Source: Bifidobacterium breve
GTDB lineage: Bacteria > Actinomycetota > Acidimicrobiia > Acidimicrobiales > Acidimicrobilacustridaceae
Length of the DNA stretch: 64,000 nucleotides
NCBI GenBank assembly: GCA_945862505.1
Contig: CAMAYJ010000002.1
Span: 17,775 to 81,774, forward strand
Direction: 5' to 3'
The notes under the pieces are model-generated. The model worked only from the letters and a program-made list of their open reading frames with translations, was not told the DNA's origin and made no database searches. The translations under genes and the position numbers were made by a program. How positions within the stretch are numbered: position 1 is the first letter of the stretch; each line of letters starts with the position of its first letter. Below, piece by piece: positions 6,270 to 52,432 of this stretch.

Positions 6270-7007
6270 ATGACCGATTTACCGCCGCCGCCGCCACCAC
6301 CGCCGCCACCACCGCCGCCGCCACCACCAACCGGCGGTACGCCGCCGCCACCACCACCGCCGCCGCCACCACCAACCGGCGGTACGCCGCCGCCACCACC
6401 ACCGCCAACCGGCGGTACGCCGCCGCCACCGATGGCTCAAGCGGGTGGCGCGCCGAATCCGAATAACGGAATGGCTGTTGCTGCACTGGTACTCGGCATC
6501 TTGACCTTCGTCTGCCTTGGTCCGATTGCGGGCATTCTCGCGATCATTTTTGGCTTCCTCGGAATGAAGAAGGCGAAGGAAATGGGCGGGACCGGAAAGG
6601 GTATGGCTCTTGCTGGACTCATTCTCGGGGCGGTTGGAACCGTGCTTTCGGTGATCTTGTTTATAGTATTTGTTGTTGTTGCAGGAACGACAACGGTTGC
6701 AATCATGGATGCGACTGGTGCCGCTGATCCGGCGAACTACAGCATCAAAGTCACTACTTGCGAGACTGATTCCGCTGGATACCCCCTTATGGCGGGCACA
6801 ATCGAGAACAAGACCTCATCGGTGAAGAGTTATATGTTTGATTATGAGTTCCGAGATGGGAACAATGTCCTGATCGATAGCGGGATCTCATTCTTAGTGC
6901 CAATTCCCAAGAATGGAACTATTTCTTGGGATGTCAATTCGTTTAAGAGTTCAAAGGCAAAAGTTGTGAAGTGTGAAATCACTCAGGTGAATAACTGGTT
7001 CAATTGA
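6270..7007 (+). CDS. Polyproline N-terminus, DUF4190-like membrane protein
   Basis: P-rich TGGT-spaced repeats, two TM helices (GMAVAALVLGILTFVCLGPIAGILAIIFGFLGMKKAKEMGGTGKGMALAGLILGAVG) and an extracytoplasmic C-terminal domain. Confidence 0.8.
   Translation: MTDLPPPPPPPPPPPPPPPPTGGTPPPPPPPPPPPTGGTPPPPPPPTGGTPPPPMAQAGGAPNPNNGMAVAALVLGILTFVCLGPIAGILAIIFGFLGMKKAKEMGGTGKGMALAGLILGAVGTVLSVILFIVFVVVAGTTTVAIMDATGAADPANYSIKVTTCETDSAGYPLMAGTIENKTSSVKSYMFDYEFRDGNNVLIDSGISFLVPIPKNGTISWDVNSFKSSKAKVVKCEITQVNNWFN
6282..6430 (+). repeat. Polyproline-coding repeat (CCG/CCA runs separated by accggcggtacg units)
   Basis: Unit aaccggcggtacgccgccgccaccaccaccgcc recurs nearly identically three times. Confidence 0.9.
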
Positions 7008-7093: not shown

Positions 7094-7999
7094 ATGAGAG
7101 TTGCGTTTGTGACCACAAGTGATCTCGACGCGATTGATGACGACGTCGACCTTCCATTGCAACTCATCGCCTTTGCCAATGCCGGAATCGACCTTGTTCA
7201 AGCGGCGTGGGAAGACGAATCGGTGGCGTGGGATTCGTTTGATCTGATCGTCGTTCGAAGTCCTTGGAATTACGTCGAGAGGCTGGACCCGTTTCGAAAA
7301 TGGCTCGGTGATCGGAGCGGTCTGACGACGTTTCACAACCCCGTCGAACTCATCGAATGGAATATCGACAAGCGCTACCTCGCTGATCTTGCACATCGAG
7401 GTGTTCCGATCGTTCCGACTGCCTTTGTTGATTCAATCGAAGAGCTCCGTTCGGCAGCGCAATCTTTTGACAGTGCGGAAATTGTGGTGAAGCCATCGGT
7501 GTCGGCAGGAAGCCGGTTGACCGGTCGCTTTCTAAAGGCTGATCGAGCCGCTGAAACGCTTGCTACTGAAATCTTTGCCAACGACCTAACGGTGATGGTT
7601 CAGCCGTTTGCAGCGCGGATCGACGCTGAAGGCGAAATCGGAACGGTGCTTTTCGACGGGGTGATTTCTCACTCGTTCAACAAAGCAGCATTGCTGGCTG
7701 AAGGTGGTCAGCTTGTGGACGGCGAGTATCGAGAGCAGATCACGTCTGTGCGAACCCCCGACGATGTGGGGGCTGTAGTTCATGCTGCAGCCACAGCGGT
7801 AACGGACATTGCTCGTGAGGGCGGTTGGATCTCAACGCACGAGGAACTTCTCTATGGCCGATACGACGTAGTGCGTCTCGATGACGGATTACTCGCGCTC
7901 CTCGAAGCGGAACTCTTTGAGCCCTGTTTTTTCTTACCGACTGATGTAGATGCTGCCGACCGATTCGTTGGCGCTGTTCTTCGCCGACTCAGCGCTTAA
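7094..7999 (+). CDS. ATP-grasp domain protein (glutathione synthase/RimK-like)
   Basis: MRVAFVTTSDLDAIDDDVDLPLQ...VRSPWNYVERLDPFRKWL...EIVVKPSVSAGSRLTGRF...; ATP-grasp-like pattern. Confidence 0.75.
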   Translation: MRVAFVTTSDLDAIDDDVDLPLQLIAFANAGIDLVQAAWEDESVAWDSFDLIVVRSPWNYVERLDPFRKWLGDRSGLTTFHNPVELIEWNIDKRYLADLAHRGVPIVPTAFVDSIEELRSAAQSFDSAEIVVKPSVSAGSRLTGRFLKADRAAETLATEIFANDLTVMVQPFAARIDAEGEIGTVLFDGVISHSFNKAALLAEGGQLVDGEYREQITSVRTPDDVGAVVHAAATAVTDIAREGGWISTHEELLYGRYDVVRLDDGLLALLEAELFEPCFFLPTDVDAADRFVGAVLRRLSA

Positions 8000-8000
8000 T

Positions 8001-8810
8001 TCACGAAGGGCTGGCGAGAGTGCCGCCAAAGATCTGCCAGGCGAGTGCGCTCTTCGCAACAAGGCTGAGTACGAGGTACACCTTTTCGCCATAGAGATAA
8101 TCGGCGAACTTTCCCTTTCCTCGGTACTGCAGCCATTGATTGAGAGCGAAGCAGTTGAACAAGAGGAAGAGTGAAACGACGATTCCGTAAACGAACGGTG
8201 GTATTCCATCGGCATTCGCAGGAATGCCGTTGATCATCGTGTTGTCGGTGGCTGCTGAGTAGAGCCCGATCACGATTGCGATCCACGGGATGATCCCGGT
8301 AATGCAGCCGAAGATGAATGGCCACCAGTTCACGGAGTCCCGATTTTGGTTGACCTGTTCCATCACAAGCCCGAACAAAATCATCGCTGCGTTGACGCCA
8401 AAGATCGCTACTAGAGCGTAGAAGTTGTTAATGCCGTTCAAGAGGCAAATCAGGAGAATCATGATTGACGCGCTGACTGAGTATTCAATCCAACGCGCGT
8501 AGTTCACTCCGCGAAGCAAGTTGCGCTCGTACCAGGACCGAATGGGGGTTACTGAGGTAAGGAGATGATCGCCAGCAGCGAGAAACAAAAAGATTGCGAT
8601 GGCAATCGCAAAGTTGAAACTGAAGAAGGTCTTACTTGCAGTCGTGAGTGAACCTTCGGCTCCGGGGGGGCCGGTCTGCACCGCCGCGACGATCGGAATT
8701 GCAAAGGATGAACTCAGCACAAGGATGAGAATTCCTTGCACGAGATGAAGTCCACCGACGCCGATGTTCCATTTGCGAAGGTTCACGAGACGTTCTGTGT
8801 GATCAGTCAT
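8001..8810 (-). CDS. Heliorhodopsin
   Basis: 269 aa, seven hydrophobic segments; heliorhodopsin motifs GGLHLVQ, ARWIEYSVSASIMI (counterion Glu), AIFGVNAAMILFG, GCITGIIPWIAIVIG, FVYGIVVSLFLLFNCFALNQWLQYRGKGKFADYLYGEKVYLVLSLVAKSALAWQIFGGTL (Schiff-base Lys253). Confidence 0.96.
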   Translation of the reverse strand: MTDHTERLVNLRKWNIGVGGLHLVQGILILVLSSSFAIPIVAAVQTGPPGAEGSLTTASKTFFSFNFAIAIAIFLFLAAGDHLLTSVTPIRSWYERNLLRGVNYARWIEYSVSASIMILLICLLNGINNFYALVAIFGVNAAMILFGLVMEQVNQNRDSVNWWPFIFGCITGIIPWIAIVIGLYSAATDNTMINGIPANADGIPPFVYGIVVSLFLLFNCFALNQWLQYRGKGKFADYLYGEKVYLVLSLVAKSALAWQIFGGTLASPS

Positions 8811-8870
8811 GAGTGGAGAGTACGTCGTCGCTGAAGGAAAGGGGTGGTTTCGTCGCCGAGGAGTGGCGGA

Positions 8871-9779
8871 ATGGTGAACAATGACCACATGCAGGTACAT
8901 CTGGTCGACGGCACGTACGAACTTTTTCGCCATCACTTTGCGCTTCCGTCTCGTATGAATAGCGATGGCATGGAAGTTGCGGCGACTCGCGGCGTGGTGA
9001 TGTCCATGTTCAACATGCTCGATGAAGGGGCGACCCACGTTGGCGTCGCAACAGATCGCACGGTGGATTCTTTCCGCAATGCCATGTGGGATGGCTACAA
9101 ATCTGGTGAAGACCTTGATCCTGAATTAGGTAATCAGTTTCCGCTCCTCGACGAAGTGTTGGATGCTGCTGGTTTCACCGTGTTCTCGATGATCGAACAC
9201 GAAGCCGACGATGGCATGGGTTCTGCTGCTGCAAGAGCTGCAGCCGATAAAAGTGTCGATCAGGTGCTGATTTGCACTCCCGACAAAGATCTTGCCCAGT
9301 GTGTGGTCGGAACTCGTGTGGTGCAGTTCGATCGTCGCAAAGGCCAGATGTTTGATCACGATGGCGTGATCGAGAAGTTTGGCGTTCCACCGGAATCGAT
9401 TCCTGACTACCTCGCATTGATGGGCGATGCATCCGACGGTTTCCCGGGTTTGCCCGGTTGGGGGGCAAAGTCAGCGTCAACAGTTCTTGGTCGCTATTTG
9501 CATATCGAGAATATTCCTGCTGACCCCGAGACCTGGGATGTTCAGGTACGAGGTGCAGCAAAACTCGCGGCAACGTTGCAGGAACAGATGGATCTTGCGA
9601 TGTTGTTTCGCAAGATCGCCACGGTCGTCACCGATGCGCCAACGTTCACAAAGGTTGACGAACTTCGCTGGACTGGACCGCAAGCCTCGTTCGCTGAAGT
9701 GGCGGCACGCATCGATGCGCCGCGTCTTGTCGAACGGGCCCAGAAGTTGGCCCAGAAAGTGACTCAGACGCGAAACTGA
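8871..9779 (+). CDS. 5'-3' exonuclease (PolA N-terminal / flap nuclease family)
   Basis: MQVHLVDGTYELFRHHFALP...VGVATDRTVDSFRNAMWDGYKSG...ICTPDKDLAQCV...DYLALMGDASDGFPGLPGWGAKSA. Confidence 0.88.
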   Translation: MVNNDHMQVHLVDGTYELFRHHFALPSRMNSDGMEVAATRGVVMSMFNMLDEGATHVGVATDRTVDSFRNAMWDGYKSGEDLDPELGNQFPLLDEVLDAAGFTVFSMIEHEADDGMGSAAARAAADKSVDQVLICTPDKDLAQCVVGTRVVQFDRRKGQMFDHDGVIEKFGVPPESIPDYLALMGDASDGFPGLPGWGAKSASTVLGRYLHIENIPADPETWDVQVRGAAKLAATLQEQMDLAMLFRKIATVVTDAPTFTKVDELRWTGPQASFAEVAARIDAPRLVERAQKLAQKVTQTRN

Positions 9780-50938: not shown

Positions 50939-52432
50939 GTGGACACGGTCTGGCTTCTTGGCGATCAACTTCGTCGTGACACCGGCGCACTCGCTGGAGT
51001 TCGTCCGGGCGAGGCCCGAGTGCTCATGGTCGAGAGCGATGGGAAAGTCGGATCGGGGCGTTGGCATCGGCAGCGACTTCATTTCATTCTGGCGTCAATG
51101 CGCAGGTTCGCCGAGGAACTCCGGGTCGAAGGTTTCGCAGTCGACTATCGCCACGCTCCGTCATTACGGGCGGGGTTCGCGGCTCACAACTCTGAGTTCA
51201 AACCAGACCGGGTAACGGCGATGTCGCCCATGTCGTTCGATGGGCGAGCAATGTTGGAAGAACTCGAGGTGAACGTGATCGAGAACGATCAGTTCCTCTG
51301 CAGCGCCGAAGCATTTGCAACTTGGGCGGGTGGCCGCGCCAATCTGAAAATGGAGGACTTCTATCGGCGGCAACGCCAACGACTGAACATCCTCATGGAT
51401 GGCGACAAACCGGTTGGCGGAACCTGGAACTACGACGCAGAAAATCGCGAGCCGCCACCGAAAGATGGTCGTTCGTGGCCAAGTTCGATTGTCGAACCCC
51501 TTGATGCCATCGATGCTCGCGTAATCGCCGACATCGCACGGCGCGCGCCCGACGCGTTCGGGTCAGCGTTCGATGGGCTGTGGGCAACGACTCGCACCGG
51601 CGCTTTGGCACGGCTTCATCAATTTATTGACGAGGTGTTGCCACTGTTTGGCCCGCACGAGGATGCGGTGCTGTCGTCAGAATGGAAGCTTGCGCACTCG
51701 ATGTTGAGCCCGTATCTCAACATTGGTCTGCTTCATCCTCGTGAAGTTGTCGAGGCGGCACACACTGCATTTAATGAAGGACGTATTCCGATTGCCTCGG
51801 CCGAGGGCTTCATTCGTCAGATCATCGGCTGGCGTGAGTACGTATGGGGTCTCTATTGGTTGTGGATGCCGGAGTATCAGGAGCTGAATGCTCTGAACGC
51901 TGATCAACCGTTGCCGGTGTCGTTTACAGGTGGCGAAACGCAAATGGCGTGTGTATCGCACACCGTGAAGGCGATTGATGATCGCGCATGGGCTCACCAC
52001 ATTGAACGACTCATGATCTTGGGCAATCTCGCACTCACGTCTGGTGTTCGTCCTGGTGCGCTCGTGGACTGGATGTGGAAGTCATTCATCGATGGAGCGG
52101 AATGGGTGATGTTGCCGAACGTGATTGGCATGGCGCTCTACGCGGACGGTGGACGAATGTCGACAAAGCCCTATGCCTCGGGCGGTTCGTACATCAACAA
52201 GATGAGCGATCACTGCGGTGACTGCCGGTATGACCCTAAAAAGCGGATCGGTGAACATGCGTGTCCGTTCACAACCCTCTATTGGGATTTTTTGGCGCGC
52301 AACGAGCCCGCGCTTCGATCGAATCATCGACTTGGCAATCAACTGGGCTCAATGCGCAAGCTCAAAGATCTCGACGCGGTTCGTGAAAGAGCAGTTGAAG
52401 TGCGATCGCGTCTTGCCGACGGCTCTCTCTAG
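50939..52432 (+). CDS. FeS-type cryptochrome/photolyase (FeS-BCP / PhrB-like)
   Basis: VWLLGDQLRRD..., KMEDFYRRQRQRLNILMDGDKPVGGTWNYDAENR, IRQIIGWREYVWGLYW; four Cys with spacing C-x87-C-x2-C-x12-C, the same spacing as Agrobacterium PhrB Cys350/438/441/454. Confidence 0.93.
   Translation: MDTVWLLGDQLRRDTGALAGVRPGEARVLMVESDGKVGSGRWHRQRLHFILASMRRFAEELRVEGFAVDYRHAPSLRAGFAAHNSEFKPDRVTAMSPMSFDGRAMLEELEVNVIENDQFLCSAEAFATWAGGRANLKMEDFYRRQRQRLNILMDGDKPVGGTWNYDAENREPPPKDGRSWPSSIVEPLDAIDARVIADIARRAPDAFGSAFDGLWATTRTGALARLHQFIDEVLPLFGPHEDAVLSSEWKLAHSMLSPYLNIGLLHPREVVEAAHTAFNEGRIPIASAEGFIRQIIGWREYVWGLYWLWMPEYQELNALNADQPLPVSFTGGETQMACVSHTVKAIDDRAWAHHIERLMILGNLALTSGVRPGALVDWMWKSFIDGAEWVMLPNVIGMALYADGGRMSTKPYASGGSYINKMSDHCGDCRYDPKKRIGEHACPFTTLYWDFLARNEPALRSNHRLGNQLGSMRKLKDLDAVRERAVEVRSRLADGSL

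Follow-up and report, generated by a model that had tools for sequence, protein, structure and literature searches.

What does a heliorhodopsin (HeR) do where no partner gene stands beside it and no evident source of retinal is encoded with it? This is the question raised by the window, the 64,000-nucleotide stretch of DNA analyzed here. Its HeR is by itself one more member of a large family, whose physiological role is disputed. The genus makes a good test case for a HeR that would run on scavenged retinal without a neighbor-encoded partner, because HeR is in every sampled genome, often lacks an operon partner, and is accompanied by missing carotenoid and retinal synthesis genes.

Identity and predicted fold of the window HeR

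The window gene is a genuine, intact HeR of an already known family, as sequence, fold, retinal-pocket residues and phylogeny together settle. The reading frame is intact over 269 codons from an ATG at 8810; the sequence-only reading had placed it exactly, with no mention that it lies on the minus strand. That reading had also called the product a HeR rather than a type-1 rhodopsin, and the Pfam search it proposed bears this out, together with the fold, pocket residues and phylogeny described below. The sole match is PF18761, whose whole profile (positions 1-242 of 242) aligns at 306.9 bits (E 1e-91; cut-off 26.7), and the type-1 rhodopsin family PF01036 gives no match. A type-1 ion-pumping rhodopsin was rejected on the motifs, which are ESL and SLVAK, with neither DTE nor DTD in TM3 and no DxxxK in TM7.

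Table 1. Features of the HeR locus in the window and of the related loci with an upstream gene pair.
Feature	Coordinates	Strand	Basis
HeR gene, 269 aa	8001..8810	-	PF18761, 306.9 bits; PDB matches 6su3, 6uh3, 6is6, 9ljj; AF2 model
K253 codon, Schiff-base lysine (48C12 K241)	8052..8054	-	alignment to 48C12; invariant in 38 homologues
E109 codon, Schiff-base counterion (48C12 E107)	8484..8486	-	alignment to 48C12; invariant in 38 homologues
Intergenic region, HeR / 5'-3' exonuclease, divergent	8811..8888	.	78 bp (exonuclease start 8889) or 60 bp (start 8871)
ATP-grasp-like protein, convergent neighbor	7094..7999	+	by eye; no Pfam match at E 0.001; syntenic in genus
5'-3' exonuclease, divergent neighbor	8889..9779	+	PF02739 + PF01367; syntenic in genus
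PqqD/Big_9 + oxygenase unit	L003:1508-3003; L008:6-1519; L015:6443-7943; L018:6411-7941		upstream of HeR

Among proteins of solved structure, 48C12 (E about 1e-61) and TaHeR (about 1e-55) come closest. Among named records the closest are MAGs of Acidimicrobiia/Actinomycetota at 93-96% identity, in keeping with a family restricted to monoderms and their kin, and several of these MAGs come from lakes or reservoirs, judging by isolate names. The public records behind loci L014 and L015 are titled Bifidobacterium breve and carry a freshwater Acidimicrobiia HeR locus; the labels look wrong. The window genome (G000; 2.32 Mb, 99.55% complete) holds one HeR copy, and dN/dS between it and its relatives is 0.04-0.16, which shows purifying selection. 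Since this constraint goes with synteny kept in independent MAGs, the frame is not a chance one, and the same preservation of the neighborhood rules out an assembly chimera.

Aligned to 48C12, the window HeR is identical at 118 of 246 residues. The paired positions (window/48C12) are H22/H23, H82/H80, R106/R104, W107/W105, E109/E107, S113/S111, M117/M115, S249/S237, A252/A240 and K253/K241, and N103 matches as well. The retinal pocket is thus kept at E109, K253, S249, A252, M117, R106, W107, H22 and H82; the sequence-only reading had the motifs and the numbering of H22, H82, E109 and K253 right. The signature motifs of HeRs, ESL in TM3 and SxxxK in TM7 (PMC9601134), are present as E109/S113/L120 and S249/K253. 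Two glutamines of HeRs, Q148 and Q213, have been tied to absorption (PMC7807009); here the first is replaced by Met150 and the second is retained as Gln225.

The AlphaFold2 model, built with 38 HeRs, has a pLDDT of 89.6 and a pTM of 0.85, with seven transmembrane helices and a strand pair in the AB-loop. Its best 10 Foldseek matches are all HeRs (TM 0.83-0.93), whereas the type-1 rhodopsins listed reach TM 0.46-0.72 with E of about 2e-4 or worse. Lysine plus arginine number 11 in the N-terminus and the BC, DE and FG loops versus 1 in the AB, CD and EF loops and the C-terminus, and by the positive-inside rule this favors an inverted topology with the N-terminus inside.

The tree of 40 sequences, which includes 48C12 and TaHeR as the sequence-only reading had suggested, places the window protein among the HeRs but in a different subclade from 48C12. 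A long-stemmed group with full support unites the genus clade and one Acidimicrobiia sequence from Lake Baikal, separate from 48C12 and the archaeal HeRs. HeR was found in all 21 sampled genomes of the genus and in 28 of 37 of the family. In one family member whose genome is 100% complete, HeR appears to be split over two reading frames (L108 and L112, in G033:C22), which is either a pseudogene or an assembly error. A comparable split is seen in G030, where two pieces match phytoene synthase.

Gene neighborhood and allelic variation of HeR

HeR is a single-gene unit in the window genome. Its stop codon and that of the convergent ATP-grasp-like gene are one base apart, and the gene on the other side is divergent, so an operon partner in the window is ruled out. 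The informative new context that the sequence-only reading had hoped for is to that extent weak. The order in most of the genus is ABC transporter, luciferase-like/SnoaL, DUF4190, ATP-grasp-like, HeR, 5'-3' exonuclease, TatA, acyl-CoA carboxylase beta, CoA transferase and mutase. Single genes of this neighborhood are missing in some members, and at least one contig (L129, from G009) carries HeR without the usual neighbors. The DUF4190 protein (6270-7007, plus strand in the window) has a long poly-proline/TGG repeat at its N-terminus and evolves fast between species, with 47-69% identity in more distant relatives. No conserved divergent promoter motif emerged between HeR and the exonuclease beyond close species, the intergenic sequence being conserved in these only.

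Four loci (L003, L008, L015 and L018) have genes for a PqqD/Big_9 protein and a 2OG-Fe(II) oxygenase directly upstream of HeR on the same strand, filling the place of the window's HeR-exonuclease intergenic region. The oxygenase has matches in 6 of 37 family genomes. In the four genus genomes among them (G005, G006, G019 and G020, with L018 apparently belonging to G006), it always adjoins HeR co-directionally, at about 33-115 bp. Most other members of the genus gave no match to it, the window genome included, and no such pair was seen beside HeRs from outside the genus among the loci compared. The two principal papers on HeR gene context name neither gene in their main text. The PqqD/Big_9 protein joins a PqqD-like domain to an Ig-like (Big_9) one and ends in ...TG; together the two genes may form a small modification system. 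Directly downstream of HeR, L012 and L013 have an SDR; SDRs are a recognized group of HeR neighbors (PMC11109279).

The alleles at this locus do not share the history of their flanks. The flanks of the window are nearest to those of L009 and L010 (dS 0.36-0.40 for the exonuclease and 0.39-0.54 for the ATP-grasp-like gene) and far from those of L003 and L006 (dS 1.2-1.4 and about 1.8). For HeR itself, dS is 0.60 and 1.11 to L009/L010 versus 0.67-0.71 to L003/L006, and protein identity is 85-87% to L009/L010 and 93-96% to L003-L006. The AU test rejects a HeR tree constrained to the grouping of the flanks (p 0.023), and it also rejects flank trees constrained to that of HeR (p 7e-5 for the exonuclease and 2e-5 for the ATP-grasp-like gene). 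The test is only moderately strong on the HeR side since the gene is itself mosaic; in L009, nucleotide identity to the window is 80% in codons 1-200 and 97% after. The conflict of the HeR tree with both flank trees supports an exchange of HeR alleles between species at a fixed locus.

Retinal supply and possible function

The sequence-only reading had found no retinal genes within the window, which holds, and had proposed a wider search of the genome. That search yielded one type-1 rhodopsin (L082:1417-2175) and neither of the synthesis genes, phytoene synthase and Blh. This rhodopsin is xanthorhodopsin-type and proton-pump-like; the solved proteins nearest to it are Gloeobacter rhodopsin and the xanthorhodopsins, and it has D-T-E in TM3 as read by eye. 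It has Ala at what we take to be the position of the antenna glycine of xanthorhodopsin and Gloeobacter rhodopsin, consistent with the absence of a carotenoid antenna. A type-1 rhodopsin was detected in 8 of the 21 genus genomes. Just upstream of the one in the window genome is a TerC-like gene, recognized by eye (the two spanning L082:302-2175), and TerC is a reported neighbor of some HeRs (PMC11109279).

Phytoene synthase (SQS_PSY) was not found in the window genome, with matches in 7 of 14 control genomes; nor was Blh (BCD), for which a family member but no control genome matches; nor was an RPE65-type carotenoid oxygenase, for which two control genomes match. SQS_PSY and BCD were each found in none of the 21 genus genomes, and both occur elsewhere in the family, outside this genus. 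The CrtI-family search gave only partial, sub-threshold matches confined to the initial part of the model, and since all 14 controls also match, it is uninformative on desaturases. No carotenoid route is known to work without SQS_PSY, and as this gene was not found, the chromophore is probably scavenged from outside, uptake itself being assumed.

Carrying HeR genus-wide without retinal synthesis genes is mildly surprising, but there is a precedent in 'Ca. Actinomarinales', which have both rhodopsin types without those genes (PMC7771536). Blh is also missing in most Luna-1 genomes (PMC12422013). The rhodopsins of actinobacteria that lack blh can still work, in Rhodoluna when retinal is added and in Aurantimicrobium with none added, the latter making its own through a pathway not yet known (PMC7734400).

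We consider it quite probable that the window HeR is a functional type-3 rhodopsin, a slow, non-pumping photosensor that binds scavenged retinal and acts on a partner protein; the scavenging, photocycle, signaling function and partner are what we infer. Lying in the membrane with the N-terminus on the inner side, the protein would bind all-trans retinal at K253, and E109 would serve as counterion to the protonated Schiff base. Light would isomerize the retinal and lead to a long-lived state in which the cytoplasmic face is altered; a partner protein in the cytoplasm or the membrane would respond with changed activity, and no ion would be pumped. HeR and the type-1 rhodopsin would most likely both be loaded with retinal from the surrounding community, since no gene for carotenoid or retinal synthesis was found. 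A role as light sensor or regulator, as the sequence-only reading had proposed, would agree by analogy with the literature, in which known HeRs regulate enzymes or transporters encoded beside them and no ion pumping is on record for bacterial HeRs (PMC9529153, PMC11109279, PMC8612252). The viral V2HeR3 is reported to transport protons (PMC9448325), so sequence alone does not decide against transport by the window HeR. Its context lends no support to a signaling output, since in the window genome it has neither an operon partner nor a fused domain, and no kinase lies next to it.

Other explanations share some of this evidence. If HeR were usually or always an apoprotein, kept for a light-independent role such as scaffolding or lipid or carotenoid binding, the lack of phytoene synthase and Blh in the genus and of the carotenoid oxygenase in the window genome would follow readily. 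However, the lysine and counterion are invariant in 38 homologues, and 'Ca. Actinomarinales', Rhodoluna and Aurantimicrobium, cited above, also argue against this role, which we regard as very improbable. HeR might instead belong to a DNA-repair or light-stress module through the short divergent promoter region it has in common with the exonuclease, an adjacency kept in most of the genus; the Trichococcus HeR is reported to help photolyase (PMC9769723). Yet two genes part HeR from the exonuclease in four relatives, the intergenic conservation is limited as noted, and the photolyase-related gene of the window is 42 kb away, which makes such a module very unlikely. That gene (50939-52432, plus strand; PF04244 DPRP, 184 bits) probably encodes an FeS-type photolyase/cryptochrome.

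It is also rather unlikely that HeR acts on the upstream 2OG-Fe(II) oxygenase/PqqD-Ig-like pair or on the downstream SDR, with the window HeR an orphaned operon remnant. The oxygenase is beside HeR and co-directional in 4 of 4 genus genomes that have it, and the SDR has its standing as a HeR neighbor, but a gene undetected in most genus members, the window genome among them, cannot be the general partner of HeR. As an extension of the photosensor reading, we raise with considerable doubt that HeR is selected for allele exchange among co-existing species of a genus dependent on community retinal, so that it would signal both light and retinal from outside. In this reading alleles replace one another within a fixed locus, with mosaic genes and differing AB-loop types on the extracellular side among the outcomes; the selective reason is speculation.

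Comparison with known systems

The window HeR resembles 48C12 (PDB 6SU3, 6UH3) in fold (TM 0.84-0.93), in the E, K and H residues of the pocket, in the ESL and SxxxK motifs and in freshwater actinobacterial origin. It differs in being 44-48% identical and in another subclade, in having longer AB and EF loops, which the predicted topology places outside the cell, and in M150 in place of Q148. TaHeR (PDB 6IS6, 7U55) shares the fold and catalytic residues, but it is archaeal, 41% identical and on the other side of the tree. In 'Ca. Actinomarinales' (PMC7771536), HeR likewise accompanies a type-1 rhodopsin without retinal synthesis genes and keeps a fixed chromosomal place, but its neighbors are nuo operons rather than the exonuclease and the ATP-grasp-like gene. 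The systems AbHeR-glutamine synthetase, OcHeR-OmrDE and TfHeR-photolyase (PMC9529153, PMC11109279, PMC9769723) are of the same family and have the regulatory role that the window HeR would share, but theirs is exerted with operon partners present, whereas the window HeR stands without one.
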